From Flavobacterium pisciphilum (GTDB taxonomy: Bacteria > Bacteroidota > Bacteroidia > Flavobacteriales > Flavobacteriaceae), in NCBI RefSeq assembly GCF_020905345.1, contig NZ_JAJJMO010000001.1, positions 1,240,001 to 1,304,000 of the forward strand: a stretch of DNA of 64,000 nucleotides. The letters run 5' to 3'. The translations under genes and the position numbers were made by a program. How positions within the stretch are numbered: position 1 is the first letter of the stretch; the number at the start of each line of letters is the position of its first letter. Under the pieces are notes generated by a model, which was not told the origin of the DNA, did no database searches, and saw only the letters and a program-made list of their open reading frames with translations. Shown in pieces: positions 32,426-47,702 of the stretch.

Positions 32426-32455
32426 TTGTATATAAAAAGTAAACTTATATTTTTG
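32426..32455 (+). promoter_or_regulatory. Bacteroidota-type promoter for the histone H1-like gene
   Basis: TTG (32426-32428), a 19-bp spacer and TATTTTTG (32448-32455) match the consensus. Start of transcription would be near 32461, leaving about 20 nt of leader before the ATG at 32482. Confidence 0.75.
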
Positions 32456-32481
32456 CCTACTTAATTTAACAATAAAAAAAC

Positions 32482-32658
32482 ATGAAAGATTTAATAGCAA
32501 AAATTAGTGCAGAAATCGAAACTTTTAGGACAGAATCAGATTCGCTGATTGAAAAAGGCGTTAAGGCAGCTGGAGCTAGAGCTCGTAAATCAACATTAGA
32601 AATTGAAAAACTATTAAAAGAGTTTAGAAAAGTTTCTATTGAGGAATCTAAAAAATAA
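32482..32658 (+). CDS. histone H1-like DNA-binding protein
   Basis: A 58-residue protein, easily missed because it is short: MKDLIAKISAEIETFRTE..., then EKGVKAAGARARKSTLEIEK and LLKEFRKVSIEESKK. This layout matches the short histone-H1-like (Hc1-type) proteins found in Flavobacteriia, which have an acidic coiled N-terminal half and a basic middle and are thought to compact DNA. It has its own strong promoter and terminator, so it is a real single-gene unit. Whether it belongs to the ICE or the chromosome cannot be decided here. As an ICE gene it could act like the nucleoid proteins that mobile elements carry to mask their own DNA. Confidence 0.8.
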   Translation: MKDLIAKISAEIETFRTESDSLIEKGVKAAGARARKSTLEIEKLLKEFRKVSIEESKK

Positions 32659-32757: not shown

Positions 32758-33804
32758 TTAATCTTTCATATATGAGAAACCGTTATTGCTTGCAATCGTG
32801 ATTAAAGGCTGAATAGTTTCTTTATATCGCAAATAATCAAATCCACTATCTCCATCTAAATTAGGAAAGATGCTAAGATATTCCTCCAAATATTTATTCT
32901 TACAATTATAACTTTTTACTATTTCATAAGCAGTCTTTTGCAGAGTATAAAACTTATCAAAATACCTATCTAAAGACGGAAGTTTATCGCTTTTGAAGGA
33001 ATTAAAGTTTTTATCAATTGGAATAAGATTCCAAATTAAATCATGAGAAACAAACGCATGAGGTACAAAATGGTCCAAAGCATATTTTTTTTCATCAAAC
33101 AATAATCTGTTATTGGTAAACAAACAATCTATTGTCCCCAATTCATTAAATACCAATTTCCAATATTCATTTGTCTGTTTTATCAAAGAATTCCGTGCTA
33201 AAGATTTGCTTATTTTATTTGGAATATCCGGAACATTTGGATTTCTTTTTTGTAGAAAGAGTGACAAATTCCAAAAACAAAAATCCTTAAGTATTTTTGA
33301 ATTCATTTTTAAATAGCTAATCCAAATTGGATTTATCTCAATATGATCTTTTCCTAACCGGTAAATACATCCGTGATCGAAATTCTGAGAAAGGGAATAA
33401 ACTTCGTTACGATTTCCGGAAAACCAAGAAGAAATAAACCAGTGAGGTACATTTTTATCGAAGTGATTTAATATTTTAAGAGTTTCAATCTTCTGAGTGT
33501 TTTCCAAGACAGAATTTATTATGCTTCTATTTTCATTTATTTTAAGATTTTCAATTTTCAGAATAGCTTTAACCGCTTCCTGAATAAGATCTTGTTTACC
33601 AAAAGAAATATGGAAATAATTAACTGTGTACCAAGAATTACTTATCATTCTTGCGAATATCCTTTGCTTATCAATATGAATGCTCCCCTCTTCTATTAAT
33701 TCAAGAATAGCCAAAAACCAGTAGAACTTATAACTAGCAGAAGTATTTGCAAATACAGAAGATAATTTATTTATTGGCAAATATTGGGAATATGGTAAGC
33801 TCAT
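32758..33804 (-). CDS. HNH endonuclease domain protein
   Basis: A 348-residue protein. The HNH nuclease pattern is near the C-terminus: KKYALDHFVPHAFVSHD (about 239-255), LIWNLIPID (257-265) and NSFKSDKLP (268-276). Candidate residues are Asp244-His245, Asn259 and Asn268, with Asp273. The N-terminal 200 residues are helical with no family recognised and probably recognise the target. It is the last gene of the minus-strand cluster that begins at 39982, separated from the nuclease gene upstream by 127 bp. HNH proteins of this type occur in restriction and other defence islands. Nuclease role is inferred from the motif. Confidence 0.75.
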   Translation of the reverse strand: MSLPYSQYLPINKLSSVFANTSASYKFYWFLAILELIEEGSIHIDKQRIFARMISNSWYTVNYFHISFGKQDLIQEAVKAILKIENLKINENRSIINSVLENTQKIETLKILNHFDKNVPHWFISSWFSGNRNEVYSLSQNFDHGCIYRLGKDHIEINPIWISYLKMNSKILKDFCFWNLSLFLQKRNPNVPDIPNKISKSLARNSLIKQTNEYWKLVFNELGTIDCLFTNNRLLFDEKKYALDHFVPHAFVSHDLIWNLIPIDKNFNSFKSDKLPSLDRYFDKFYTLQKTAYEIVKSYNCKNKYLEEYLSIFPNLDGDSGFDYLRYKETIQPLITIASNNGFSYMKD

Positions 33805-33931
33805 AAAACCATTTAGATTTAGATTTAAAAATATTATTGAAATGAATACTTCGGAAATTGTAATTGAAGCGTAAATAAAACTGATGGGAAATCTTTTCCT
33901 ACGTATAATAGCTATAAAATAGTTTTTGAAT

Positions 33932-34723
33932 TTATTTCAATTTTTCAAGACGTTGCTGGGCTTTTGTTAAAATTTCTTCACTGAATAAAACTTTATATTT
34001 ATCTTTCTGAATTATACTTTCAATTGTAAGATCCAGCCTATTTATTTCAAACATTTTAAGTAGTCCAGAATGTAACTTCTCAGTACCCTCTTTTATTAGA
34101 CGATTTGCGGCACCAATAGCTCCGTAATCGTAAATCTGGTTCAGGATAATTGATTTGTTAATTTTTGCACCTGCTTTTAATGACAGATCAATTGATGAAA
34201 TTAATTCGTCATGCAACTGGTTTTCTAAAATTATGAATTCATTTTCTTTTGTATCAGCACAAAGAACATCATTTGCTAACAAAGCTCTTTTGTCGTATTG
34301 GATAACAATTTCTTTTAATTTATTGAAACGGATGAAAAACTGTTTTATTAGTTGCGTTTCTTCACTTTGTACAATAAATTCATGGTTATAATATTCAGCA
34401 GAATTGGTCCAGTTATAGGAACCAGCTATTAATTTAACATTGTCAAATATTGCATATTTGTCATGCAAAAATTTTCCACTTCTAGCTGATAAAACATAAA
34501 CTTTTCCACCTTTATTTATAAAGTTTTCGAAAGATAATCTCGTATTTTCATAGTGGTCACTTATTATAATTTCTACAGAACAGCCAGTATCTAATTTGTC
34601 ACTTAACTGGCCAAGCAGGTCTTTACTAGTAAACCAAGCAACTGACACAATAATTGATTCTCTTGCTGAATAAATATTTGATTCAATTTTTTTCTTAATA
34701 TCTTGAAATGATGCTGTTGTCAT
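33932..34723 (-). CDS. phospholipase D-family nuclease-like protein
   Basis: A 263-residue protein with one complete HKD motif: LHDKYAIFD (His87, Lys89, Asp94) followed by GSYNWTNSAE (101-110). The N-terminal half shows the usual PLD fold start (ARESIIVSVAWFTSKDLLGQL). A single HKD copy implies a dimer forming one active site, as in the nuclease Nuc and the restriction enzyme BfiI. The C-terminal 130 residues are helical. A 169-bp gap separates it from the gene upstream, so it may have its own promoter. In this setting a DNA- or RNA-cleaving effector is more likely than a lipid-acting enzyme. Confidence 0.8.
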   Translation of the reverse strand: MTTASFQDIKKKIESNIYSARESIIVSVAWFTSKDLLGQLSDKLDTGCSVEIIISDHYENTRLSFENFINKGGKVYVLSARSGKFLHDKYAIFDNVKLIAGSYNWTNSAEYYNHEFIVQSEETQLIKQFFIRFNKLKEIVIQYDKRALLANDVLCADTKENEFIILENQLHDELISSIDLSLKAGAKINKSIILNQIYDYGAIGAANRLIKEGTEKLHSGLLKMFEINRLDLTIESIIQKDKYKVLFSEEILTKAQQRLEKLK

Positions 34724-34892
34724 AAATTTTTCGTTAATTTTTCGATTTGGTTAGTCTTAACTTGTAAAAATATCAGGCGATAGAGCTTGCAGATTTTCAC
34801 TTCAAATTGAAAACTTTTAAAAGAGTTTAAAAAAAGCTTCTTTTGACGAATCTATAAATTCATAATAGACTTCCAAAAAAAGGCTTATCATA

Positions 34893-35864
34893 TTAAGAAT
34901 TTAAATTTAAGGATATGTCATAATACCAAGTACACCATGAATCATGACTAGTTACATCTTCAAATTTTTCAGGTACAGGATAAATTATTCTGATTTCCGG
35001 ATTATGTAGTGCAAATAAACATACTCCTAGCGCCATAGGTTTTGTACCAATTGGAGCAATATTTATAAAAAGATCTTGATATTCAGTCTTGTCCTTAATA
35101 CTGGTCAGTAAGTTGTAGGTATCAAAAGGATTTGTTGATCTGCTAAATACAAGTTTATTACCACCTTTATTTACAACTTTTTCATTAGAAATTAAGCTAA
35201 TATCTTTAAAATTTGGAGAGTAGCTAGGAAAACCATTTACCAAAATTGTTTTTTTTGGCGCAACACTTTCATCTAGTTCGGCCGATAAATCTCCATCAAA
35301 ACCGAGCATGATAATAAGTAAACTATCATTTTTATTGGCATCATTTCCACTAAAACTTGCTATTTCCTCGATACTTACTGGACCTACACTTGAATGATAT
35401 TCACTATATAGACCTTTATTAAATACGTAGTTTTTCGGCTCAGTGTAGAAAATCGTAACATTTTCAATTTCACAAACAGTCTTCAACCAATTTAAAAGTG
35501 TAAAAAAAAATGGTTTAGTGAAGAAAGAAATGTCTACAGCTATTTGAGAATCTTTTGGAATATCGATATCTAATAGCTTTAAGGCAGCGGAAGGATTTTT
35601 TAAAGAACAATTATAAATTTTTGTTTTATATGATAAATTTTTATAATTCTCAGAACCAATACTTTTACGCTTTTTTATTGAATCTTCCCTTTCGTTAAAA
35701 TTAAACAGAACTACGTTGTCGACTTCAATTTTATTTTGTTCTGCAACAAATATGGATTTATATGCTCTCAAATCTGTTCCAACAGCTAACAAAAAAAAAT
35801 CAAATTTCTCAATATCATTGTTCCAGTTTTCATTTAAAACATTCGATTTATAAATTATTTCCAT
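34893..35864 (-). CDS. CARF-like Rossmannoid protein of a predicted conflict system
   Basis: I start this at MEIIYKSN (35864), one base after the stop of the ATPase gene, rather than at the overlapping upstream Met at 35927. The 323-residue product alternates strands and helices. IPKDSQIAVDISFFTKPFFFTLLNWL (near 112-137) gives a D-x-S/T strand end, and NIAPIGTKPMALGVCLFAL (about 265-283) resembles the TGGTKxM loop of CARF-type Rossmann folds that bind cyclic oligonucleotides. I know no exact family. Tight coupling to the ATPase suggests both act in one complex, this one perhaps sensing a nucleotide ligand. That role is inference from fold pattern and context. Confidence 0.55.
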   Translation of the reverse strand: MEIIYKSNVLNENWNNDIEKFDFFLLAVGTDLRAYKSIFVAEQNKIEVDNVVLFNFNEREDSIKKRKSIGSENYKNLSYKTKIYNCSLKNPSAALKLLDIDIPKDSQIAVDISFFTKPFFFTLLNWLKTVCEIENVTIFYTEPKNYVFNKGLYSEYHSSVGPVSIEEIASFSGNDANKNDSLLIIMLGFDGDLSAELDESVAPKKTILVNGFPSYSPNFKDISLISNEKVVNKGGNKLVFSRSTNPFDTYNLLTSIKDKTEYQDLFINIAPIGTKPMALGVCLFALHNPEIRIIYPVPEKFEDVTSHDSWCTWYYDISLNLNS

Positions 35865-35865
35865 A

Positions 35866-37794
35866 TTAAAATCCAAGTTCTGTTTGAGAATTATTTTTTG
35901 TAATTGGTTTAACTCTAGTTTTTTCAAGCCTAAATTCGATTCCTTCCTTCTCCATTAATGCAGTTATTTCTGAAGAATTGTATTCCTCTGAAAAACCTCC
36001 TCTAGTCCTGTATGAAAACTGAAAAATTGGCGCAAATACTCTATTCAAAATAAATATATCATTTTTCTTTTTTCCTATGGATTGTTGTTGAGTTTTTTGC
36101 TTTCTTTGAATTATTGACCATCTTTGAGCAGCTTCGAAGGCATCTTTTGTTGATGTAGTAAGTAATGTTTTATCTACTGAAAACTGATTTGTTTCAGGAT
36201 AACGAATAAGAATGTCTCTATGGTATCTTTTAAAAGTATCACCGAGATTCAATGCAAAAAAGTATAATTTATTACCAAACTTTTCAATTCTGCGTATTTG
36301 TTGTAATTCAGTTTCAGCTAAATCTCGAGAGGCATTACTTTGTAAATGCTTCGGAATATTTCCACTTTCAATTAAAGTTTTCTTATTTTCAAATTCAGCA
36401 TACTGAAAACAACGACGACAAAGTTCAATAAAATGACCAACTATGCCAGATGATAAATAACTAAAAGTATTAAAAGAATAATAACTTTTATCTTTTTTAT
36501 AAATTGTTGCAATAATAAACATTAGTGAAAGTTTATATTTATCGACATAGTCCATTTTATATTTTGAAAGATTTGGGTCAGCAGCACCAATCAAATATGC
36601 TTTCATTGCGCTATTAATTTCCTTACTTGTTTTACCTCGCTTAAACCATAAGCAATTTAGTACCTGTAGTAATGGATTCTCAATACATGTTAGCAGTCTT
36701 TTATCATCTTTATTATCGATTGAATAGTGCGAAAATATTTTCTCATGTTTAATTCCAACAATTTCAATTGCCTCCAAAACTAAATCCTCTTTTTCACCTA
36801 AAAAATCTGCAATATCAATAAGATTGTTTTGTACAAAACATTCAATTTTTGATAATCTTTTGTTAGCAATATCCCTAAGATATTTTGAGTAACCTGACGA
36901 TTTAATCAAATATTCTTCAAATATTATATTCCTGTAATCTCTACCTTCTTTTATAAAATCATCAGTACTGATTGTATCATAGGTTCTAAAACCTTCAAGT
37001 CTCATCCCTAATCGAAATGTAATACCTGGCTTTACAAATTTTAAGAGTGTATTTATCAATCTTTGTTGCAATTCCAGAAAATTTTCGTATTCATCAATCA
37101 TTAGTACAAATTTAAAATCTTCCGGTACTTCGAGAATATTTTTTTTGAAAGCATCTGCTATACCAAAAATAAGATATTGAGAATTATATATAAATTCTGA
37201 TTCAAACTCTACATTTTTTAATGGAATTTGCGACCTAAACAAATTAATTTCAGTAATTTTAGAGTCTACAAATGAAATCATTGCAGACAAATCCACAAAA
37301 CTAGTATTACTTCCTGTTAAAAGCGCAGAGCAATCTTCAAAAAACTTTTTGGTAAATTTAATATCAATCTTTTTATCCATTTCGAGTGAATGAAAATAAG
37401 CGAGATACACTTTGGCAATGTACAGTTCAAAATAATGAGTAAAAATTACTAACCATTTTTCATCACTAACACCGAAACCTTCAAATGATCTTAAGATGGG
37501 TCCGTCAATTCTAATATAGAAACCTGCTCCATTTAATAATTTGTTAGTTGGGTCAGTGTGATCTCTGCTTAATAGTTTTTTTTGCACATCGTAGGAACAA
37601 TATCTTAAAAACATAGTTTTTCCAGTACCGCGTCCACCCATAAAGACGATTGGATTTGGATCTGAAAATACTTCTTTTTCAGTTAAACCAAATTCAACAA
37701 AACTAAATGGATTACTCCAATATTCTAATATCATATTATTATCCATGACATTAGCATTATATTCAGAAAAGGGATTTTTATATGTATTTTCCAA
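35866..37794 (-). CDS. ORC/CDC6-like AAA+ ATPase
   Basis: A 642-residue protein with Walker A GGRGTGKT (53-60) and Walker B FVLMIDEYENF (229-239), followed by a sensor-like strand ITFRLGMRLEGFRTY. The motif IDEYENF and overall layout match ATPases related to ORC1/CDC6 that are found beside phosphoribosyltransferase-like genes in predicted prokaryotic conflict systems. The C-terminal 300 residues are helical, ending in a basic tail. The gene overlaps the PRTase-like gene upstream by 17 bp. It probably uses ATP to assemble on DNA or to control the partner proteins. The ATPase call is firm; the ORC-like label is by resemblance. Confidence 0.75.
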   Translation of the reverse strand: MENTYKNPFSEYNANVMDNNMILEYWSNPFSFVEFGLTEKEVFSDPNPIVFMGGRGTGKTMFLRYCSYDVQKKLLSRDHTDPTNKLLNGAGFYIRIDGPILRSFEGFGVSDEKWLVIFTHYFELYIAKVYLAYFHSLEMDKKIDIKFTKKFFEDCSALLTGSNTSFVDLSAMISFVDSKITEINLFRSQIPLKNVEFESEFIYNSQYLIFGIADAFKKNILEVPEDFKFVLMIDEYENFLELQQRLINTLLKFVKPGITFRLGMRLEGFRTYDTISTDDFIKEGRDYRNIIFEEYLIKSSGYSKYLRDIANKRLSKIECFVQNNLIDIADFLGEKEDLVLEAIEIVGIKHEKIFSHYSIDNKDDKRLLTCIENPLLQVLNCLWFKRGKTSKEINSAMKAYLIGAADPNLSKYKMDYVDKYKLSLMFIIATIYKKDKSYYSFNTFSYLSSGIVGHFIELCRRCFQYAEFENKKTLIESGNIPKHLQSNASRDLAETELQQIRRIEKFGNKLYFFALNLGDTFKRYHRDILIRYPETNQFSVDKTLLTTSTKDAFEAAQRWSIIQRKQKTQQQSIGKKKNDIFILNRVFAPIFQFSYRTRGGFSEEYNSSEITALMEKEGIEFRLEKTRVKPITKNNSQTELGF

Positions 37795-38713
37795 TATTTA
37801 GCAATTTATTTTGATAATTTTTGTGATATCTTTTTCTAATAGGAATCCAATTGTTCTCCTCTGCCCAAAAAATAGGTAAAGTATTATCTGGCGTATTATA
37901 ATAAAAACCAAATAAAAACTGACCATCATTATGCCCAAGAGGATTAGCAGGTTTAACTATATTACCATAATGAGTAGCAAATTTTTTTGCATTTTCTAAG
38001 TGTTCGTTAAAGTATGAAAAAACCATAGAATCTTCTTCAAAACACTTGTGTCTTTTATCAAGAATTATACATGTTACAACCTCAATATTTTCACTTTGAA
38101 GATAATCAATTGCATCGTCTGTTGCAATAAAAGTTAATAAAAGTATTCGCTTATTTTTTAAGCTTGGATTATTTTGTTTTAGCTGTCTGATATATTTTGC
38201 CGCTTGACTTTTTTCACCAGTAGACAATGTCACGTCATCTACAAATATGATTGTATCAACTGTTTGATCTAAGTTGTCTAACCTGGAAATAAATTTTTTT
38301 AAAGGTATTTCGTTCTGTTGGCGAAATAAATATAATATATAGCTACTACTTTCTCCTGGTTGTCCAAGACTATAAAATCTACTTCTGCCCAGAATTTTTT
38401 TGTAATTTAGATCTATACTATTTGCAACATCTTGTTCAACAATCAATTTATGTATAAAATCGCTATATAACATTTTACACAAATGCTTTACTTCATTCTC
38501 ATTATAGAAAACAAAATTCGCTAATAGCCACAATGCAAGCTGATCTTCATAACTTTTTTTAAATACCTCTCCCTTAAAATTTGTTAACCACTCAGTTATA
38601 TGTGATTTGTCCAGTTTTTTTTCCCAAACGATTTCACTTGTTAAACGTATCTGATTAATTAAATCTGCTTCTGAGGGCAGGGGTAACTTTGGACTTCTTG
38701 TATTATTTGACAC
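37778..38713 (-). CDS. phosphoribosyltransferase-like protein (PRTase-CE type)
   Basis: A 311-residue protein. TIIFVDDVTLSTGEKSQ (154-170) matches the PRPP-binding loop of phosphoribosyltransferases (hhhVDDVxxTG), followed by a helix and the strand KRILLLTFIATDDAI. The N-terminal 130 residues are helical (EWLTNFKGEVF, ALWLLANFVFYNENEVKHL) and not part of the usual enzyme. Related PRTase domains occur beside ORC-like ATPases in conflict systems, where the substrate is unknown. It might release, add or sense a nucleotide. It overlaps the methyltransferase gene by 11 bp and the ATPase gene by 17 bp, so the three are translated together. Confidence 0.7.
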   Translation of the reverse strand: MSNNTRSPKLPLPSEADLINQIRLTSEIVWEKKLDKSHITEWLTNFKGEVFKKSYEDQLALWLLANFVFYNENEVKHLCKMLYSDFIHKLIVEQDVANSIDLNYKKILGRSRFYSLGQPGESSSYILYLFRQQNEIPLKKFISRLDNLDQTVDTIIFVDDVTLSTGEKSQAAKYIRQLKQNNPSLKNKRILLLTFIATDDAIDYLQSENIEVVTCIILDKRHKCFEEDSMVFSYFNEHLENAKKFATHYGNIVKPANPLGHNDGQFLFGFYYNTPDNTLPIFWAEENNWIPIRKRYHKNYQNKLLNIGKYI

Positions 38714-39620
38714 TACTAGTAGATTTTGAAGTTATAATTGTATCAAAACGACCTTTAGAGCCTTCAATATATTCATCATTAATTTCAACTGAAATCCACT
38801 CTCGATTTAAACTTTCAGCACATTCTCCCGTTGTATTACTACCTCCAAAAGGATCAAAAACTAAGTCATTTTCATCTGTTAAAAAACGTATAAAAAATTC
38901 AGGTAAGTCTAATGGCATTCTCGCAGGATGAGGTCCAATTCCTTTATCTTTACAATACCTTAAATATTTGGAATTTGAATCTGTATTTGATGAAATTAGC
39001 ACATTTGAAGGTATTGCTCCGCCATTATTCGTCAAAAATGATTTCTCATTAATAACATGTTCTGAAGGTCTCCTGCCAGAATTATATTTCTGTTCATTTA
39101 GTAACTTTTTCATTCGGTTGCTATATTCTACAAGAACATTTTTATTGTTAGCCTTTGGATAATCACCTTTACTTAACCACCAAATTGTTGTAAATGAATC
39201 CTTAACACGTATCCTCTTTTTATTTACCCATTGTATTGGACTAGGTAGCTTAGCTTTGTTATACCAAATAAATTGTTGGCACAGCTTGTAATTTCCTTTA
39301 TCTAAAAATGCTAAGAGAGATCTTAAGGGTAATGTTGACATTATTGGCCTTCCTTCTTCCCATGAATTTCCAATTTCAAGTACTATAGAACCATCATCCG
39401 TTAAATACTCGCTTAGTAATGAACTTATTTTCGATATCCACTCTATGTATTCTTCACCTTGTAAATTTCCATATTTTTTTTTTCTATTTAGTGGGAAAGG
39501 AGGAGAAAAAAAAATGAGATTAAATTTACCTTTATATGATTCAAAATCTTTAGACTGCAGAGCATCTTCAACATTTGCTTTGTAAAATATTCCCTTAGTA
39601 GTCCTATATGCTTCTTCCAT
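38703..39620 (-). CDS. DNA methyltransferase, N4-cytosine/N6-adenine type (beta-like order)
   Basis: A 305-residue protein with catalytic motif IV first (NLIFFSPPFPL, SPPF at 39-42) and the AdoMet-binding motif I near the C-terminus (LVFDPFGGSNTTGECAESLNREWISVEI, DPFGG from about 256). That order is the beta class. SPPF/SPPY is typical of N4-cytosine enzymes. A CAAATATA box at 39638-39645 (TATATTTG on the minus strand) lies about 20 bp upstream and is a plausible -7 element with a very short leader. As first structural gene of the cluster, the enzyme probably marks self DNA so that the downstream proteins or nucleases spare it. Confidence 0.85.
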   Translation of the reverse strand: MEEAYRTTKGIFYKANVEDALQSKDFESYKGKFNLIFFSPPFPLNRKKKYGNLQGEEYIEWISKISSLLSEYLTDDGSIVLEIGNSWEEGRPIMSTLPLRSLLAFLDKGNYKLCQQFIWYNKAKLPSPIQWVNKKRIRVKDSFTTIWWLSKGDYPKANNKNVLVEYSNRMKKLLNEQKYNSGRRPSEHVINEKSFLTNNGGAIPSNVLISSNTDSNSKYLRYCKDKGIGPHPARMPLDLPEFFIRFLTDENDLVFDPFGGSNTTGECAESLNREWISVEINDEYIEGSKGRFDTIITSKSTSSVK

Positions 39621-39754
39621 AATGTAACGTTATTCGGCAAATATATAGCAATATAACCTAATGTTAATTCATCGATGAAAAATTCTTACACATAAAGAAT
39701 AACATTTTTTTAAATAACTCTCTTATCAGTTCCGTTTAAAAAGTTGGTTAATTT

Positions 39755-39982
39755 TTATTCAAAATCTAGCAGGTCTTTTGGTTCCTTCCCTAATCCTTTA
39801 GCTAAATCAAGTAGTGTACTATACGCAAAATTTCGTTTTCCGTTTTCAATATCGCTTACAGTCGCTTTCACAAGTTTATCACTGTTTAATACTACATCAT
39901 CTTGACTGAGGTGTAAATCTGTCCGTAACTTCTTAAAATTGTCACCAAATTTTTTAAGTTTTTCTTCCCTTTGCTTTTCCAT
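39755..39982 (-). CDS. XRE-family regulator, controller-protein-like
   Basis: I start this at MEKQREEK (39982), giving 75 residues, because the longer frame to 40090 runs through the promoter-like region and the palindrome at 40028. It has a single HTH of the Cro/C1 type: FKKLRTDLHLSQDDVVLNSD...ATVSDIENGKRNFAYSTLLDLAKGL. Size and position ahead of a methyltransferase operon resemble restriction-modification controller (C) proteins, which delay nuclease expression after entry of the element. It is 134 bp upstream of the methyltransferase gene on the same strand. Confidence 0.8.
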   Translation of the reverse strand: MEKQREEKLKKFGDNFKKLRTDLHLSQDDVVLNSDKLVKATVSDIENGKRNFAYSTLLDLAKGLGKEPKDLLDFE

Positions 39983-40027
39983 ATTATGTTGCTTTAGACA
40001 AAAGGCGTGATAATTCACTAAAAAATT

Positions 40028-40045
40028 GTTATAAGAACTTATAAC
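40028..40045. promoter_or_regulatory. operator-like perfect palindrome
   Basis: GTTATAAGAACTTATAAC is an 18-bp perfect palindrome (8+2+8) 46 bp upstream of the XRE start codon. It has the form of a C-protein or Cro-like operator and probably autoregulates the gene. It also lies about 60 bp upstream of the plus-strand promoter at 40101. Confidence 0.6.
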
Positions 40046-40100
40046 AAATGAAAGTTTTTTGTTATATTTGTTTATTAATTGAATTAACATTCATTATTAT

Positions 40101-40130
40101 TTGCTTTAAGCATATAATTAAATAATTTTG
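40101..40130 (+). promoter_or_regulatory. Bacteroidota-type promoter ahead of the structured RNA
   Basis: TTG (40101-40103), a 19-bp spacer and TAATTTTG (40123-40130) match the consensus well. Transcription would start near 40137 and run through the nested hairpins toward the SusC gene. Confidence 0.7.
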
Positions 40131-40136
40131 CGATTC

Positions 40137-40460
40137 TTCATGTAAAAAATATTTGAAGCATTCGCTTTGAATCTCGTTTTCAAAAACTGGCGTTTTAATA
40201 ACCACGAGAGGATAAGTATGATGCTCACGTCTTATGGCGTGGGCTCACTTATTTGTGGTAGGGTGCCGCCAGTGCCTTGAAAACGATAAGCTGAGTTCCA
40301 TGCCTTTTTTTATTTACTTCAGGCACTACTCGGCTCCCATTCTCAGCAATGCTAATATTTTTAAGTTTCGTAAATCAGCAACAAATATGGAATTAGTTAG
40401 TTGAGAAACACACTGCCCAAACCTAGCTGCAATAAGGAAAAGCGGTGTGGCTTCTCAATC
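40137..40460 (+). ncRNA. structured RNA or long leader upstream of SusC
   Basis: Three independent stem systems fill this stretch. The first (40174-40286) has five nested helices: TCGTTTTCAA/TTGAAAACGA, CTGGCG/CGCCAG, ACCAC/GTGGT, ATAAGT/ACTTAT and GCTCACG/CGTGGGC. The second (40289-40335) pairs AGCTGAGT/ACTCGGCT and TGCCT/AGGCA. The third (40401-40458) pairs TTGAGAA/TTCTCAA and CACACTGC/GCGGTGTG. Several pairs are G-T, which favours an RNA rather than a DNA site. It does not match RNase P RNA, tmRNA, SRP RNA or 6S RNA as I know them. It could be a separate small RNA or the leader of the SusC/SusD operon. No protein-coding frame was seen. Confidence 0.6.
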
Positions 40461-40624: not shown

Positions 40625-43600
40625 ATGAATAATTTTTCATTTTATAAGGATGGGAAAGCTATTTATTGCCTTTTTTTTATCTGGCTATGTCTGTCTTTCT
40701 CATCTCTTTTCGCCAAATCTTCGGATCGGCATAACATTTCTTTTCCTCAACAGCATAAGGTTCAGGGGACTATAACAGACGGTACCAATCCTCTGCCTGG
40801 CGTAACAATTGCCGTTAAAAATAAAAAAAACAATGCCGTAATTTCAGATTACAGCGGTCAATTTACACTCTCTTCCTCTCCATTTGACACTCTGGTAGTA
40901 TCATATATAGGTTTTAAAACTTCTCTAATTCCCATTCAGGGACGTTCAGTTGTAAACATCATACTTTTAACTGATACAAAAACATTGCAGGAAGTAATTG
41001 TGAATGCGGGTTATTACTCTGTAAAAGACAAGGAACGAACCGGAAGCATTGCCAGAATTACATCCAAGGAAATAGGAACACAGCCTATTACAAATATTGT
41101 GGGAACCATGCAGGGTCGGATGGCCGGTGTAAATGTAGTTCAGGAAAGCGGTATTGCAGGCGGCGGTTTTCAAATTAATATCCGGGGACTTAATAGTCTT
41201 AGGACCAGTGCAAATTCACCATTTTACCTCATCGATGGCGTTCCATACTCCAGTGATCCTATCAGCGACCGACAGACTTCCACTTCAATTCCCGGTGACG
41301 GCAATCCTTTGGCCAGCATTAACCCGAATGATATTGAGAGCATTGAAGTGCTTAAAGATGCTGATGCAACTGCAATCTACGGTTCAAGAGGTGCGAACGG
41401 AGTAGTTTTGATAACCACAAAAAAAGGAAAAACAGGAAAAACCACTTTCAACATTGACACTAACCATTCATTTGGTAAAGTAACAAAAATGATGAAAATG
41501 ATGAACACTGACCAATATCTTAATATGCGCAGGGAAGCATTTGCTAATGACGGAATTACAACATACCCTGCTAATGCCTATGATGTGAACGGAACATGGG
41601 ATCAGAACCGCTACACCGATTGGCAAAAAGAGCTTATTGGCCGGACGGCTGAAACATTTTTCATCCAAGCTACCGCAAGCGGTGGCACTGAACAATCACG
41701 ATACCTCTTTAGCGGGAATTACAGAACCGAAAGCAGTGTTTATCCCAGCGATTTTTTATATAAAAAAGGCGGCGGCCGATTTAGTTTTAATCATAAGTCA
41801 GTAGACAATCGCTTCATTTTTAATTTTTCAGCAAGTTATATGATACAAGACAATGATCTTCCGTGGATAGATTTTGTAACCTTATCACGTCAGCTTGCAC
41901 CGAACGCTCCAAATTTATACGACCAATATGGAAACTTGAACTGGGAAAACAATACTTGGGAGAATCCCCTAGCAAATCTAGAAAGCAAAAGTTTAGCAAA
42001 CACAACGGATTTGATCGCGAATTCTGTCATTTCTTACAGAATAATTGACAACCTTTTAATTAAGTCCAATTTTGGATTTACAGACTTAAAAAATATTGAC
42101 AGTCGCTCACTTCCTTCCACAATGTATAATCCATCATTTAATCTTACCAGTCAGCAATCATCAATTTATCAAAATCAGTTTAATAGAAACTCCTGGATTG
42201 TTGAACCGCAGCTAAACTGGAATAAAACTTTTGGACGCTCTTCATTAGACATTCTTGCAGGTGCAACATATCAAAATCAAAAAAGCGAGAAATTAGCATT
42301 TCTCTCCAGCGGATTTTCAAGTAACAGTCTGCTTTATAACAGTTCATCAGCATCTCAGACCGTTATTCTGAATAACGATGAAATCATCTATAAATATCAA
42401 GCCTTTTTTGGGCGTTTAAACTACACCTATGACAGCAAATATATAATTAATCTGACTGCCAGAAGGGACGGTTCAAGCCGATTTGGTCCTGGTAAACAGT
42501 TTTCAACTTTTGGAGCAGCAGGGCTTGCCTGGATATTTACAAATGAAGAATTTGCAAAAAATAAACTTAATTTTTTAAGTTTTGGAAAATTGCGCACAAG
42601 CTATGGAACAACTGGAAGTGACCAGATTGGAGACTATCAATTTCTAGACACCTACGCAAGTTCCAACTTAAATTACGGAGGCGTCATTGGCCTGCTTCCT
42701 GCCCGTTTATACAACCCTGATTTTAGCTGGGAAACAAATAAGAAGTGGGAAGGTTCCTTGGAACTGGGTTTTCTACGCGACAGAATTTTTCTAACAACCT
42801 CCTACTATAAAAACCGGTCTTCTAACCAACTGGTTGGCTTACCTCTTCCAGGAACTACCGGATTTGCATCAATTCAGCAGAACCTTAATGCAGAAGTGGA
42901 AAATTACGGACTCGAAGTAACCTTACGTATAAATCCCTTTAAGACCAAAAATTTCACATGGACGACTGACTTCAATATAACTAAAGCAGGTAATAAACTT
43001 CTCTCATTTCCCGGTTTAGAAAACTCAAATTATAGAAGTCAATTTGTCGTGGGCCAGCCAACTACAATTCGAAAATTATTTAACTTCAAATCCGTTGATC
43101 CCCAAACAGGTCTTTATCAATTTGAAGATGTAAACGGTGATGGAATCATTTCCTATGAATATGATCGCGAAACAGTTAGAGATTTCAATCCTGAATTTTA
43201 CGGAGGATTGAACAATCAACTTACTTTTAAAGGACTGCAGCTGGACTTTCTTTTTCAATTTGTGAAACAAGAGAACTTTAATTTTGCTAATACCCAGCGC
43301 TCGGCAGGACATTTCGCCAATAAACCAACTGAATACGTTGACAGCTGGAGCCAGCCCGGGGATCTAGCGCCCTATCAGAGATATGCAACAAACACAAATC
43401 AATCAGCCTCACAGCGTAGTGAATTCTTCAGTTTAAGTACGGGGGCTGTAAGTGATGCATCATTTATAAGGCTTAAAAACGTCTCGCTATCCTACAATTT
43501 CCCTAAAGAGTTAACACCTAATATGGGCTGCCGTCTATCATTTCAGGCACAAAATCTTTTTACAATAACTTCTTATAAGGGAGCAGATCCTGAATTTACA

Positions 43601-43660
43601 CTAGGGGGTACTTTACCGCCTCTGCGGATTTATTCTCTTGGAGTGCAGTTTACATTTTAA
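40625..43660 (+). CDS. SusC/RagA-family TonB-linked outer membrane protein
   Basis: A 1011-residue protein with a signal sequence, a carboxypeptidase-D-like domain (VQGTITDGTNPLPGVTIAVK...VVSYIGFKT, about 47-100), the plug (LQEVIVNAGYYSVKDKERTGSIARITSKEI, GRMAGVNVVQESG, INIRGLNSLRTSANSPFYLIDGVPY, ANGVVLITTKKG) and a beta barrel ending in Phe (YSLGVQFTF). SusC proteins import peptides or glycans captured by their SusD lid, powered by TonB. SusD and an S9 peptidase follow directly, so the substrate is probably a peptide. No sugar-degrading enzymes are nearby. Confidence 0.93.
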   Translation: MNNFSFYKDGKAIYCLFFIWLCLSFSSLFAKSSDRHNISFPQQHKVQGTITDGTNPLPGVTIAVKNKKNNAVISDYSGQFTLSSSPFDTLVVSYIGFKTSLIPIQGRSVVNIILLTDTKTLQEVIVNAGYYSVKDKERTGSIARITSKEIGTQPITNIVGTMQGRMAGVNVVQESGIAGGGFQINIRGLNSLRTSANSPFYLIDGVPYSSDPISDRQTSTSIPGDGNPLASINPNDIESIEVLKDADATAIYGSRGANGVVLITTKKGKTGKTTFNIDTNHSFGKVTKMMKMMNTDQYLNMRREAFANDGITTYPANAYDVNGTWDQNRYTDWQKELIGRTAETFFIQATASGGTEQSRYLFSGNYRTESSVYPSDFLYKKGGGRFSFNHKSVDNRFIFNFSASYMIQDNDLPWIDFVTLSRQLAPNAPNLYDQYGNLNWENNTWENPLANLESKSLANTTDLIANSVISYRIIDNLLIKSNFGFTDLKNIDSRSLPSTMYNPSFNLTSQQSSIYQNQFNRNSWIVEPQLNWNKTFGRSSLDILAGATYQNQKSEKLAFLSSGFSSNSLLYNSSSASQTVILNNDEIIYKYQAFFGRLNYTYDSKYIINLTARRDGSSRFGPGKQFSTFGAAGLAWIFTNEEFAKNKLNFLSFGKLRTSYGTTGSDQIGDYQFLDTYASSNLNYGGVIGLLPARLYNPDFSWETNKKWEGSLELGFLRDRIFLTTSYYKNRSSNQLVGLPLPGTTGFASIQQNLNAEVENYGLEVTLRINPFKTKNFTWTTDFNITKAGNKLLSFPGLENSNYRSQFVVGQPTTIRKLFNFKSVDPQTGLYQFEDVNGDGIISYEYDRETVRDFNPEFYGGLNNQLTFKGLQLDFLFQFVKQENFNFANTQRSAGHFANKPTEYVDSWSQPGDLAPYQRYATNTNQSASQRSEFFSLSTGAVSDASFIRLKNVSLSYNFPKELTPNMGCRLSFQAQNLFTITSYKGADPEFTLGGTLPPLRIYSLGVQFTF

Positions 43661-43678
43661 TATCAAAAGCAGTTACTT

Positions 43679-45073
43679 ATGAAAAAATATTTTTTTAAGA
43701 AAGTTTACTATATAAAGCTAATAATTTGTGGATTATTAATCATTAGTTATAGTTGTGACAATTTTGTCGAAATAGAACAGCCTAATTCACAATTGATCAC
43801 TGAGTCCGTCTATAGGGATGTTGCCACGGCAAATGCTGCTATGACTGATATTTATGCGCAGATGCGAGAACAGGGTTTAATTACTGGAAAAATTAATGGC
43901 ATTTCCTGTCTTTTGGGAACTTATGCAGACGAGCTCATTTCATTTGAAGATGGAATTTATACAACAGCACCTTTTTATTCCAATACATTATCCTCATCAA
44001 TGACATACATTTCAAATATATGGAACAGGACATACAGCCAGATATATGCAGTAAATGCAGTATTAGAAGGAGTTGAAAATTCAACTGCACTATCACAAGA
44101 TGTAAAAAAACAATTAAAGGGAGAAGCTTTATTTCTCCGCGGCTTTCTACACTTCCATCTTGTTAATCTATATGGTGATGTGCCTTACATTACTACAACA
44201 GACTATAATAAAAATAAAAATGCAGTGAGAATAAACAGCACCGAAGTAAATCAAAAAGTAATTAACGACTTGAAAGATGCAGCGAGTTTGCTTGGAAAAA
44301 CATACAGCCAATCGGACAGAATCCGTCCAAATCGTTCAGCAGTTCAGTCAGTGCTGGCAAGAGTATATTTGTATAACAATAATTACGAAGACGCTCAAAC
44401 AATGGCGTCGGCTGTTTTAAATGAAAAATCGTTGTATAGTATTGGAACTAATCTCAATACTGTATTTTTAAAAGACAGCCCGGCCACAATATGGCAGTTA
44501 TCAGCCGGCCCAAATGGTGCCAATACCTATCAGGGTGCTACCTTTATTTTTCAGGCGGGTCCGCCTTCCAGGGTTTCACTTACTGAAAGTTTAATTACTC
44601 AGTTTGAAACAAATGATTTAAGAAAAACTTCATGGATAAAAACCGTTACAAATGGAAACAACAAATGGTACCATCCTTTTAAATACAAACAAAACAACAA
44701 TACATCTGTCACTCTGGAAAATTCTGTAGTACTGAGACTTGAAGAACAATACTTAATTCGGGCTGAAGCCAGAGCCATGCAAGGAGAACTGAACGGCGCA
44801 GTTGAAGATTTAAATGTAATCCGCAATCGTGCCGGATTATCAGGAACTACCGCAGTTTCTCATAATGATATAATGAAAGCTATAGAACATGAAAGAAGAG
44901 TTGAACTATTCAGCGAATTCGGGCATCGTTTTTTTGACCTAAAAAGATGGAATAAGTTAGAGAATGTTTTAGGTACAAAAACCGGATGGAACACAACAGA
45001 TTCACTTTGGCCACTTCCCTTGTCCGAAATGAACTCAAATCCATTTTTAACTCCTCAAAATCCTGGATATTAA
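43679..45073 (+). CDS. SusD/RagB-family nutrient-binding lipoprotein
   Basis: A 464-residue protein with a lipoprotein signal (LIICGLLIISYSC, Cys near residue 26). TPR-like SusD sequence follows: LKGEALFLRGFLHFHLVNLYGDVPYITT (about 143-170) and, at the end, YLIRAEARAMQGELNGAVEDLNVIRNRAGL plus IEHERRVELFSEFGHRFFDLKRW, all typical of RagB/SusD. It caps the SusC barrel on the cell surface. It starts 18 bp after SusC and ends 1 bp before the S9 peptidase. Confidence 0.92.
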   Translation: MKKYFFKKVYYIKLIICGLLIISYSCDNFVEIEQPNSQLITESVYRDVATANAAMTDIYAQMREQGLITGKINGISCLLGTYADELISFEDGIYTTAPFYSNTLSSSMTYISNIWNRTYSQIYAVNAVLEGVENSTALSQDVKKQLKGEALFLRGFLHFHLVNLYGDVPYITTTDYNKNKNAVRINSTEVNQKVINDLKDAASLLGKTYSQSDRIRPNRSAVQSVLARVYLYNNNYEDAQTMASAVLNEKSLYSIGTNLNTVFLKDSPATIWQLSAGPNGANTYQGATFIFQAGPPSRVSLTESLITQFETNDLRKTSWIKTVTNGNNKWYHPFKYKQNNNTSVTLENSVVLRLEEQYLIRAEARAMQGELNGAVEDLNVIRNRAGLSGTTAVSHNDIMKAIEHERRVELFSEFGHRFFDLKRWNKLENVLGTKTGWNTTDSLWPLPLSEMNSNPFLTPQNPGY

Positions 45074-45074
45074 T

Positions 45075-47702
45075 ATGAGTCTATTTTTCAATACAAAAAA
45101 GATTTTCTGCTGCATTTACAATTTTAGAGTTTTAAATCTTATTTTATTACTATTCGCTTATACCTTAAGCGGTCAGGTAAAATTAAAAAAGAATATAACA
45201 GTTTCTGATTACAGTAAGTGGGGCACTTTGATGAATCAATCACTTTCAAAAAAAGGAGATTGGGCTTCTTACTGCATGAAGTATGACGACGTCCCAGACA
45301 CACTTTTCGTGAAAAGCGTCGAAAATAAAATCAGCTTTCAATTCCCTAATGCAAATGAAGGTATGTTTATTAATGAAAAGCTTTTCATTTTTTTAGACAA
45401 AGCAAGATCACTGCATTTACTTGATTTAGAAAAAGGAACACTTATACAACTAGATAGTATCCAGAAATATTCTATCTCAGCAGATAATCGATATCTAATA
45501 ACATTAGAACAAAACAAAAAGGAAGACTTGTTGTCGGTAAGAAATTTTGAAGGCAAAATTCTAGAGATGATTGTAGGGGTTAAGGAATACAAAATGAATA
45601 ATTTTGGTAATGCTTTGGTTGGCTTTATTGATAACCAAGAGATTAAAAGTGTTTTGTTAATTAAACTTGGCGCAGTGATTTCAAAATTTAAAATTTTGGA
45701 AGGAAGCCAGGAAATTTATTCCAATTTGACTTGGAGCGAAAGCAGCGGCTCTTTTGCATTTTTGGCTCAAAACAGTAAACAAAACCAAAACAAGTTATTT
45801 CATTATTTGGTTAAGCAAAATAAACTTTCAGAATTTATTCCTCAGAGTACAGAGGACTTCCCTGAGGGATTTCAAGTAAGCGCAATACCTAATACTTTAA
45901 CCATCTCCCCAGACAACAGCCGTTTGATATTCAATATTTATAAAACGCTCAAATCTGAAATTCTCGATCCGGTCCAAATTTGGAACACGAATGATGCAGT
46001 TGTCTACTCAGAGAAAATGCATTCAGGAGAATTAGACAATACGCTTATTACAGTTTCATGGCAGCCTCAAAACGCAAGATTTCTAAAAATAACAGACAAG
46101 GACAGACCTTACTGTACTCTGAACAGTTCAAAAGATTTTGCCTTGGTCTTTGGCTTTAACAAGGGCAAACCACAATATGGTGAAAATCGAAAAGTAGACT
46201 ACTATGTTGCAGATCTTCGAAAAGGTAGTCAGCATCTGCTTCTCGAAGATCATCTAATGGGCCTGCACAACACCAGTATGTCGCCCAAAGGCACATACAT
46301 TGCTTACTTAATGAATAATGAATGGTGGGTCTATGATTTTAAGACAAAAGTTAAAATAAAACTTGCCAATACAGACAACCGAAATTTTGAAAACATAGAA
46401 TATGCTCAGGAAAAAAAATCATATGGCATAGGTGGCTGGAGCTCCGATGAGAAATATATACTGCTGTATGACCGTTTTGATATTTGGAAAGCATCTATAG
46501 ACGGAAAAAAAACTTCAAAAATAACCAGAGGTAGCGAAAAAAAAATAAAATTCAGAACAGTACCTGATGACAAGAAAGTTTTTTTTCCTAATTCAGGGAA
46601 TATTGCCCAGGAAGTAGACTTAGACAAACCAATTACACTATCCGCTACAGGTGAAAATCAAACTGGTTTTTTTCTACTTTCTCCCAGAGGAGAGCTCAAA
46701 GAAATTAGCTATGGTAAATCTTTACATTCCAAAATATCAAAATCCATTAATGCTGATAAATTTATATACATAACTCAGTCCTATGACTCTCCTCCTAGTC
46801 TCGTTTATCTAAACTCTAACACACAGGAAAAAAAACTGGTCTTCCAAAGTAATATGCATCATTTTAATTATAATTGGGGCAGACAGGAATTCATAAAGTA
46901 CACAAATTCAGCAAATGAGGAGTTGAATGGAACTTTGTATTATCCTTTTAATTATGACGCTACAAGTAAATATCCAATGCTTGTATTCGTATATGAAGAA
47001 CTCAGCTATAGGAATCTATATTATACCAATCCTTCTCGATATAATTTGACAGGATTTAATCTCTCGTCCCTCACAGCAGCAGGCTATTTTGTTTTAATGC
47101 CTGACATTAAATATAAAATCGGTGACACTGGTTTCTCCGCTGTCGATTGTGTACTGGCTGCGACTAAAAAAGTAATAGAATCAGGAATAATAGACAAAGA
47201 AAGGATAGCATTGATGGGACAATCCTTCGGTGGTTATGAGACTAATTTTATCGTTACTCAAACTAATCTCTTTAAGACAGCTATTTCAGGAGTGTCAATT
47301 TTTGATTTGGAAAGGATGTATTTATCAATAAGTGAAAGTGCAGGAAAACCTGAATTATGGAGATTTGAATCACAGCAGTGGAGAATGGGTACTTCCTTAT
47401 TTGAAGGAAGAGAAAATTATGAACGAAATTCTCCGTCAACTTATGTGGAAAGTATAAATACTCCAATGTTAATTTGGTCTGGAGCTGAAGACAGGCAGGT
47501 TAATCCTGATCAAAGTGTTGCATTATATCTTGCGTTAAGAAGATTGGAGAAAAAAGGCATTTTACTTATGTATCCAACAGAATCACACTCTTTAATGCTA
47601 AAAAAAAGCCAGATTGATTTATATAATCGTCTTAATGATTGGCTGGCTTTTTATTTAAAAAACGAGCCTCCACCAGATTGGATTAAAAAAGGATTACAAT
47701 AA
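45075..47702 (+). CDS. secreted S9 prolyl-oligopeptidase-family peptidase
   Basis: An 875-residue protein with an N-terminal signal (LILLLFAYTLSG), a long beta-propeller-like region (about 30-600) and a C-terminal alpha/beta hydrolase domain. The catalytic triad is visible: Ser717 in GQSFGGYE, Asp806 in GAEDRQVNPDQ and His838 in ESHSL. S9 enzymes cut short peptides, often after Pro, or remove N-terminal dipeptides. With SusC/SusD in the same operon it probably trims a peptide in the periplasm or outside the cell. The convergent operon encodes a small secreted Cys-containing protein, which is an attractive but unproven substrate. Confidence 0.9.
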   Translation: MSLFFNTKKIFCCIYNFRVLNLILLLFAYTLSGQVKLKKNITVSDYSKWGTLMNQSLSKKGDWASYCMKYDDVPDTLFVKSVENKISFQFPNANEGMFINEKLFIFLDKARSLHLLDLEKGTLIQLDSIQKYSISADNRYLITLEQNKKEDLLSVRNFEGKILEMIVGVKEYKMNNFGNALVGFIDNQEIKSVLLIKLGAVISKFKILEGSQEIYSNLTWSESSGSFAFLAQNSKQNQNKLFHYLVKQNKLSEFIPQSTEDFPEGFQVSAIPNTLTISPDNSRLIFNIYKTLKSEILDPVQIWNTNDAVVYSEKMHSGELDNTLITVSWQPQNARFLKITDKDRPYCTLNSSKDFALVFGFNKGKPQYGENRKVDYYVADLRKGSQHLLLEDHLMGLHNTSMSPKGTYIAYLMNNEWWVYDFKTKVKIKLANTDNRNFENIEYAQEKKSYGIGGWSSDEKYILLYDRFDIWKASIDGKKTSKITRGSEKKIKFRTVPDDKKVFFPNSGNIAQEVDLDKPITLSATGENQTGFFLLSPRGELKEISYGKSLHSKISKSINADKFIYITQSYDSPPSLVYLNSNTQEKKLVFQSNMHHFNYNWGRQEFIKYTNSANEELNGTLYYPFNYDATSKYPMLVFVYEELSYRNLYYTNPSRYNLTGFNLSSLTAAGYFVLMPDIKYKIGDTGFSAVDCVLAATKKVIESGIIDKERIALMGQSFGGYETNFIVTQTNLFKTAISGVSIFDLERMYLSISESAGKPELWRFESQQWRMGTSLFEGRENYERNSPSTYVESINTPMLIWSGAEDRQVNPDQSVALYLALRRLEKKGILLMYPTESHSLMLKKSQIDLYNRLNDWLAFYLKNEPPPDWIKKGLQ

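Follow-up and report, generated by a model that had tools for sequence, protein, structure and literature searches.

Type II restriction-modification systems of the PvuII kind resemble the locus described here in three respects, namely an M.PvuII-like methyltransferase (MTase), an HTH protein similar to control (C) proteins, and the tying of an MTase class to a partner module. They differ from it in that the present unit has no conserved endonuclease, the partners of its MTase being a phosphoribosyltransferase (PRTase), an AAA+ ATPase and a tandem CARF protein. BREX likewise pairs a DNA methyltransferase with an adjoining ATPase of the ORC/Cdc6 clade, BrxC, as described in the available part of PMC12839542. 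However, the seven clustered genes of the window, which is the whole stretch of 64,000 nucleotides that was analysed, give no matches to PglZ, BrxA or BrxB in Pfam and PADLOC (for the methyltransferase, among the best 25 of 52 PADLOC matches). To our knowledge, neither the PRTase nor the tandem CARF protein is a BREX part.

PRTase proteins act as toxins or effectors in the defence units ShosTA, through the ShosT toxin, and the type III-A1 retrons, according to the available portions of PMC11878078, PMC9122126 and PMC12548924, and one retron lineage is described, in partial text, in which the PRTase is replaced by other genes. In contrast, the present locus has no DprA antitoxin and no reverse transcriptase, with no Pfam match to a DprA-like antitoxin among the window's seven genes, and the PRTase is accompanied by an ATPase, a CARF protein and an MTase. 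The ancillary effectors of type III CRISPR systems, Can1, Card1 and Can2, share the CARF fold, whereas the CARF protein here carries no nuclease domain and the genome contains no Csm1-type Cas10. Similarly, the sensor fold of type III CRISPR and CBASS signalling is present, but Pfam reveals no oligonucleotide cyclase among the seven genes; one SMODS protein is encoded elsewhere in the genome.

The closest entries are the Pfam families ORC-CDC6-like, PRTase-CE and HD-CE (PF24389-PF24391) and the PADLOC model CARF6, of which the proteins are clear members, although these are family entries only; the consecutive accessions suggest that the three Pfam families were defined together. A literature search found no text describing the unit with its methyltransferase, and an earlier description is possible. 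The available part of PMC7159879 makes no mention of these families, and in the accessible part of PMC13092281 the sole mention of PRTase is a legend abbreviation relating to a validated system.

The four genes between 34893 and 39620, encoding the MTase (MT), the PRTase (PRT), the ATPase (ORC) and the CARF protein (CARF), form a conserved unit. The reading put forward here, for which we consider the case evenly balanced, is that of a methylation-gated abortive-infection system in which MT would supply the self mark, ORC and CARF would perform detection, and PRT would be an effector acting on nucleotide metabolism.

Organization and recurrence of the unit

A first-pass annotation of this DNA had claimed seven minus-strand genes, with overlaps of 11 bp between the MTase and PRTase genes and 17 bp between the PRTase and ATPase genes, and a gap of 1 bp between the ATPase and CARF genes. 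All seven open reading frames and both overlaps were recovered in an ORF check of the window, every quoted motif is found in the proteins, and the 1-bp gap holds when CARF starts at the ATG at 35864, a start that also fits the database protein P0241 (323 aa, 100% identity over 94% of the longer CARF form). Regarding the extent of the cluster, the edge at 32758 stands, while 39982 proved to be an inner ATG of the HTH frame, which runs from 39755 to 40090. The Pfam matches of all seven proteins exceed the respective curated cut-offs. SusC/SusD genes also lie in the window, and its phylum was taken on their account to be Bacteroidota.

The comparison comprised 67 related loci, 58 of them from one pattern-limited genome scan with an alignment of the ATPase (A1) and nine added from G164, G558, four plasmid records picked from overlapping lists of 155 and 4 records, one of two phage matches and both of two viral matches; a genome scan with a single PRTase sequence as the query gave no matches. 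In all 61 loci having the three genes, PRTase, ORC and CARF follow one another in this order on a single strand with gaps of at most 20 bp, and in one locus (L002) PRT and ORC are fused into one protein. No further same-strand ORF of at least 80 aa lies within 60 bp in 31 of 43 blocks. The proposal that the four genes recur as a unit was thus borne out, with one gene order kept across phyla, beyond chance.

Both bacteria and archaea carry the gene set, which is located on chromosomes, on plasmids and on contigs predicted to be viral. Relatives of the core are present in 155 plasmid records and two IMG/VR contigs. Of 395 genomes examined in the phylum, only 2 carry the core, the genome studied here being one of them. 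This distribution, patchy and extending to plasmids and predicted viral contigs, is of the defence type and speaks in favour of the first-pass interpretation.

Methyltransferase, HTH protein and downstream nucleases

MT (38703..39620, minus strand) is a beta-class methyltransferase with SPPF and DPFGG motifs, matched by N6_N4_Mtase (1.6e-38) in Pfam and MTase_II (8.4e-96) in PADLOC, and its nearest solved relative is M.PvuII, an N4-cytosine methyltransferase (PDB 1boo, 1.8e-81, residues 3-293). An adjacent DNA methyltransferase is present in 61 of the 67 loci (52/58 scanned and 9/9 added), which supports its role as the constant partner of the core; the MTase genes of L023 and L024, situated two genes downstream and beyond the distance limit of the scan, were counted by hand. 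Four of the six loci without it (L005, L011, L019 and L034) end at a contig edge at most 160 bp from the core. Another, L036, consists of PRT, ORC and CARF with an HNH gene, and the class models match no DNA methyltransferase there within a search covering 2.5 kb before its contig start and the flank after the core. The MTases belong to different classes, including the PvuII-like class of the window, gamma N6 (N6A), C5 and a PF01555-type group, with catalytic-motif patterns in 17/18, 35/36, 5/6 and 3/3 of the matched proteins, respectively. The class follows the ORC tree, changing 4 times on it compared with 22 on average after shuffling; this quick tree has 66 rows, omitting L019 and L037 and including the window sequence. 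CAGCTG, the M.PvuII site, shows no avoidance in the window that would be a sign of restriction, with 15 occurrences found and 7.3 expected.

The HTH protein (39755..40090, minus strand; Pfam HTH_3 2.2e-6; PADLOC Control_protein 1.1e-10) resembles the C proteins of restriction-modification systems. Similar HTH ORFs occur in only 2 of 58 core loci, and the protein is likely a local regulator outside the conserved unit; operator-like repeats sought before its gene yielded only generic inverted repeats.

Downstream of CARF on the same strand are a PLD-family nuclease-like protein with an HKD motif (33932..34723, minus strand; PLDc_2 2.6e-19) and an HNH nuclease-like protein (32758..33804, minus strand; HNH_4 3.2e-8). 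Their position directly beyond the core speaks for the first-pass interpretation, in which the ATPase with the PRTase either detects foreign DNA or makes a signal, the CARF protein senses it, and the two nucleases cut; an HNH relative upstream of PRT in L036 points the same way. However, searches with the single window proteins, covering the 58 loci together with L101-L105, L111 and L112, found PLD in 0/58 and HNH in 1/58 core loci (L036), and both occur without the core, HNH in five genomes and PLD in G805 and G806. Furthermore, a small sequence present in multiple copies in the genus lies on both sides of the pair, one copy, with a short ORF inside it, beyond HNH (32441..32658, plus strand) and a degenerate one between CARF and PLD (34781..34858, plus strand; 78% identity to 32441-32658 over 79 columns). 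The first-pass interpretation as a whole is consequently very doubtful: its folds, constant MTase, unit and distribution stand, and its executing nucleases are rejected, core relatives being nearly always without them. PLD and HNH are likely accessory add-ons acquired separately.

An ordinary type II restriction-modification system, composed of the C protein, the PvuII-like MTase and an HNH or PLD endonuclease and carrying PRT, ORC and CARF as passenger genes, would explain the HTH protein and the resemblance of MT to M.PvuII. Since the core recurs in loci that have neither HNH nor PLD, this reading is contradicted: across phyla the MTase gene stays with PRT, ORC and CARF, whereas the nucleases do not, and we give it scarcely any credence. 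DISARM was also considered and rejected, the PLD gene alone resembling DrmC, weakly (1.7e-11), with no DrmA or DrmB among the PADLOC matches listed.

The PRTase position and its nucleotide-metabolism neighbours

PRT (37778..38713, minus strand; Pfam PRTase-CE 2.3e-51) is predicted to adopt a type I phosphoribosyltransferase fold with an intact acidic DD pair and PRPP loop, which supports the fold proposed earlier; a PDB sequence search returned weak uracil PRTase rows. Asp159 and Asp160 are invariant across 52 aligned sequences, and a loose DD pattern occurs in PRT of 61 of 62 loci, the exception (L005) being cut.

The remaining five loci have no PRTase. One is cut (L019), three (L046, L055 and L058) have a TIR domain fused ahead of ORC (TIR_2 5.7e-12, 5.8e-12 and 5.5e-16), and one, L104, has an HD-CE protein in the PRTase position (1.3e-25). 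Because a TIR or HD-CE domain takes this position in four loci, PRT is likely an interchangeable effector, and not the detector that had been suggested. On the quick tree, however, the TIR loci form a single clade and the HD-CE locus sits on a long branch, giving only two effector changes, which counts against this reading. L058 contains TIR-ORC alone, with CARF and the methyltransferase absent from the 9 kb downstream and the contig starting 162 bp upstream, and its match is interrupted by a stop codon. A viral scan with the TIR-ORC alignment gave no matches, and a TIR-ORC search of 300 genomes from the phylum to which L055's genome belongs found only that genome and G558, which is of the PRTase type.

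Additionally, in 8 of the 67 loci thyX lies at most two genes from the block, a position that points to the nucleotide pools as the target. A neighbour-family set was compiled from 114 neighbours, most of them the ORF immediately to either side of the block and some the second one out, in 93 families; since thyX of L007, L032 and L040 was placed in it deliberately (otherwise thyX has five members and the next family four), the fair figure is 8/232 for ORFs up to two positions from the block and 1/448 for those further out, a count made after the pattern was noticed. A dUTPase_2 gene adjoins PRT in L103 and L118, and as these are sister loci, the two cases may represent one event. No restriction-type nuclease is found among the neighbour families listed (the best 25 of 93).

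These neighbours bear on a BREX-like reading, in which exclusion proceeds without killing: the MTase would find sites, ORC would load on unmodified DNA, and the PRTase would act on DNA or replication and not on free nucleotides. The MTase-ATPase pairing of BREX is in its favour, as is the PRTase protein ComFC, which cooperates with a helicase during DNA uptake according to the available part of PMC5512222. Nucleotide chemistry is a better fit to TIR or HD-CE standing in for the PRTase and to the thyX and dUTPase neighbours, and with the missing PglZ, BrxA and BrxB matches, we regard BREX-like exclusion as improbable.

ATPase, CARF protein and the proposed switch

ORC (35866..37794, minus strand), the proposed switch, is assigned to the ORC-CDC6-like family PF24389 (2e-85), so the ORC/CDC6-like fold is supported by Pfam, while PADLOC and NCBIfam models gave no match and a PDB sequence search returned nothing at E ≤0.1. 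Its Walker A motif is GGRGTGKT and its Walker B motif IDEYENF, with Gly53, Gly54, Arg55, Gly58, Lys59, Asp234 and Glu235 invariant in 36 sequences. Walker A is present in 66 of the 67 proteins, the exception (L019) being cut, and a loose Walker B pattern in only 52.

CARF, a tandem CARF protein (34893..35864 from the ATG or 34893-35927 from a TTG, minus strand; CARF_Card1 5.7e-7), yielded only rows resembling chance in a PDB sequence search, and its CARF fold is supported by structure prediction. The best structural match, covering both domains, is Can1 (6sce), which the title of that entry describes as a nuclease activated by cyclic oligoadenylate; the predicted model of CARF contains no effector or nuclease domain.

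This match favours a signalling reading, in which the PRTase, TIR or HD-CE protein makes or edits a nucleotide messenger that CARF reads, switching the ORC complex, with arrest or DNA exclusion brought about by ORC or outside partners. The nearest PADLOC models for the PRTase bear the name PRTase_III-A, and TIR domains are also described as signal-generating enzymes in the accessible part of PMC9503650; since TIR domains can make signals too, the TIR exchange is no proof that PRT kills. Nevertheless, CARF has no effector domain in its model, none of the listed neighbour families is a recurrent effector next to it, and a signal without an acting reader is hard to place, which makes such signalling rather unlikely.

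The abortive-infection reading is based on the unit and its order, the MTase classes, the effector swaps, the published PRTase effectors, thyX, the lack of a listed nuclease, and mobility. MT would mark the cell's own DNA and probably provide site recognition too, and unmethylated sites in invader DNA would trigger ATP-dependent assembly of ORC, which would detect the unmarked DNA together with the tandem CARF protein, a nucleotide ligand of CARF permitting or stopping activation. Once activated, PRT could drain PRPP or pyrimidine (deoxy)nucleotides through phosphoribosyl transfer or its reverse, which would stop phage replication along with the cell, PLD and HNH being add-on nucleases with no executor role. 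Such a system would resemble restriction-modification, with the place of the nuclease taken by a switch formed of ATPase and CARF and by an effector directed at nucleotides. More tentatively, and with less confidence than the general reading, the loci may represent a restriction-modification class with an immune switch in place of the nuclease, in which the MTase defines self, ORC with CARF as its governor is the reader, a plug-in PRTase, TIR or HD protein empties the pools, and ThyX or dUTPase shields thymidylate.

If this is correct, the role of DNA methylation as a mark of self would extend from nucleases to a suicide switch whose effectors can be exchanged, present in bacteria and archaea, on conjugative plasmids and on contigs predicted to be viral, and CARF sensors would gain a role beyond CRISPR and CBASS. 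The PRTase-CE, HD-CE and ORC-CDC6-like families, whose members are labelled hypothetical in the plasmid records examined, would also be given a testable function.

Gene layout and recurrence of the core

The seven minus-strand genes and the motifs that the first-pass annotation had described were all confirmed by ORF calls and by domain and profile matches. Four of them form a tightly packed core, consisting of a PvuII-like DNA methyltransferase (38703-39620), a PRTase-CE protein (37778-38713), an ORC/CDC6-like AAA+ ATPase (35866-37794) and a tandem CARF protein (34893-35864). In the window, the methyltransferase and PRTase genes overlap by 11 bp and the PRTase and ATPase genes by 17 bp, and the ATPase and CARF genes are 1 bp apart if the latter starts at ATG 35864, a start that agrees with database protein P0241. 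A PLD-family nuclease-like gene (33932-34723) lies 169 bp past the core, followed 127 bp further by an HNH nuclease-like gene (32758-33804). The genome, in which the window occupies C1:1240001-1304000, measures 5.46 Mb and contains one ORC-CDC6-like match. Inverted repeats at 40026-40075, upstream of the inner start (39982) of the HTH gene (39755-40090), represent a possible operator.

A profile scan of genome contigs with the ATPase alignment yielded 58 loci, which by record titles derive from Bacteroidota, Planctomycetes, Nitrospira, Pseudomonadota, Firmicutes, Spirochaetes, archaea, and others. Of these, 54 have the PRTase, 56 have CARF, and 52 have a DNA methyltransferase adjoining the core; the six loci lacking the last are four with a contig end within 160 bp (L005, L011, L019, L034), L036, whose contig begins 2.5 kb ahead of the PRTase gene, and L058. 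Nine added loci (genomes G164 and G558, four plasmids, two IMG/VR contigs, and one phage-labelled contig), all with CARF and a methyltransferase, bring the total to 67. The PRTase-ATPase-CARF order and strand are kept in all 61 loci possessing the three genes, with gaps of at most 20 bp, and in L002 the PRTase and ATPase are fused into one protein. The core recurs as a unit across phyla.

Within the window's phylum, the ATPase profile matches 2 of 395 genomes, its own counted, and PRTase-CE exceeds the cut-off in 21 of the 395. ORC matches occur in 155 plasmid records, of which 129 are from Klebsiella and 137 are predicted conjugative. The four plasmid regions read all carry a methyltransferase, the ATPase and CARF, with the PRTase in three and an HD-CE protein in one, and apart from the methyltransferase these proteins bear the annotation "hypothetical protein". 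Among 5,426 E. coli genomes, 4 contain the Klebsiella block, plasmid-borne in each.

In a Spirochaetia contig (L036:6663-11095), DUF4007, known from a BREX-related system, and a 1178-aa AAA protein follow the PRTase-ATPase-CARF genes. An accessory pair adjoins the block at L023:8626-11181, L024:11858-14423, L041:13044-15605, and L042:13046-15606, one member being an ATPase that matches ORC-CDC6-like in part and, in L024, has a zinc ribbon; the other member gave no match in a Pfam search in L024.

Proposed effector slot, methyltransferase partner, and likely target

The PRTase is missing in 5 of the 67 loci. L019 is cut; in L046, L055, and L058 the ATPase carries an N-terminal TIR fusion, at the spot where L002 has the PRTase, with E72, a putative catalytic residue, kept in all three; and the Agrobacterium plasmid locus L104 has an HD-CE protein instead. 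Judged from these sequences, the effector slot appears exchangeable among PRTase, TIR, and HD-CE, with the TIR loci forming one clade with one damaged member (L058) and HD-CE represented by one locus. Nucleotides are the substrates of TIR and PRTase domains, and often of HD domains; the PRTase is therefore taken as the effector. Published PRTase effectors include ShosT, described as a toxin (PMC11878078), a DprA-PRTase pair, protective against T7 and lambda (PMC9122126), and that of type III-A1 retrons, which is replaced in one lineage (PMC12548924).

The methyltransferase partner, METHYLTRANSFERASE, is constant across loci, yet of several kinds, being PvuII-like in 16 loci, gamma N6 in 37, C5 in 5, and of a further PF01555-type group in 3. 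Mapped on a quick tree of the ATPase, the methyltransferase class needs 4 changes vs a shuffled mean of 22.0, a value as low being reached in 0 of 200 shuffles, and the methyltransferase and ATPase therefore evolve as a pair that is rarely re-matched. Its position is variable, ahead of the PRTase, past CARF, or on the opposite strand. HhH-GPD glycosylase genes adjoin C5 loci L012, L035, and L040, as well as L011, whose upstream side is cut, and vsr lies near C5 locus L104; such neighbours would be expected for an active methyltransferase.

We call the unit one of the restriction-modification or abortive-infection kind, probably a methylation-gated system with the PRTase as the predicted nucleotide-attacking effector. 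Every step, from detection of unmarked DNA through to nucleotide loss, is one that we infer, and CARF might keep the complex inactive or active via a nucleotide ligand. Counting against this explanation are the single TIR clade with its damaged member, the lone HD-CE locus and the post hoc nature of the thyX test described below; in addition, the Walker B pattern was found in only 52 of the 67 ATPases, and CAGCTG is not avoided in the window. A search of the window's genome for Csm1-type Cas10 found none; one SMODS (CD-NTase) match (G000:C1:4846745-4847230), far from the window, is a possible CBASS component. The parts are known families, and three consecutive Pfam numbers suggest that the entry authors saw them together; the set together with its methyltransferase was not found described in the literature searched, which missed likely sources.

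A clue to the target comes from a post hoc neighbour test covering all ORFs of at least 90 aa in the 67 loci. Of the 232 ORFs at most two places away from the block, 8 are thyX genes, vs 1 among the 448 more distant ORFs (Fisher p 0.001), the single far one being the other half of a split L040 gene. Thy1 was confirmed by Pfam in the thyX genes tested, the 8 loci are distributed over all four methyltransferase groups, and dUTPase_2 genes lie directly ahead of the PRTase in sister loci L103 and L118. Pyrimidine deoxynucleotides would thus be the likely target, or at least in need of protection.

Neighbouring PLD and HNH nucleases

The first-pass annotation had assigned the acting role to the PLD and HNH proteins, which was not supported. 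Single-sequence searches of the 58 core loci found PLD relatives in none and an HNH relative in one (L036), and both also occur without the core. HNH stands without it in at least 5 of 61 genomes of the genus; a search of 150 genomes found PLD in 2 others, and the 18 kb stretches read around those two genes contain no PRTase, ATPase, or CARF. Of 43 blocks with at least 600 bp on both sides, 31 have no further same-strand ORF of at least 80 aa within 60 bp, and the other 12 have various neighbours. The two nucleases are extras to the unit.

A small multi-copy sequence (32441-32658; degenerate copy 34781-34858) flanks the PLD-HNH pair on both sides and may mark a recombination seam. It is a repeated sequence of the genus, and by eye only its short ORF resembles a histone-H1-like protein. 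HNH relatives without the core stand beside differing partners in L096, L097, L098, L099, and L100, which by eye include a DndC/PAPS-reductase-like protein (L098) and a UvrD-like helicase (L099); this would suit a shared plug-in nuclease. At L135 (G806:C1:834000-852000), a PLD relative and a pair that is Gabija-like by eye lie upstream of a SusC-SusD-peptidase trio resembling, also by eye, the window trio at 40625-47702, and this spot may therefore be a defence hotspot.

A candidate structured RNA upstream of SusC

Lying upstream of the SusC gene (40625-43660), the stretch 40127-40310 (+) is likely a new structured RNA, judging from 13 copies (this one, a second in the same genome, and a single copy from each of 11 further genomes in the genus). 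Its 55 pairs are 96% kept across the copies, in a structure derived from those same sequences, and slid controls drop to 31-39% paired. Changes on both sides occur in 13 pairs, a number reached by 0 of 500 shuffles. The stretch has no Rfam match at E of 1 or less, ends with a T run, and is mostly 75-90% identical between species, vs about 64-70% for long SusC matches.
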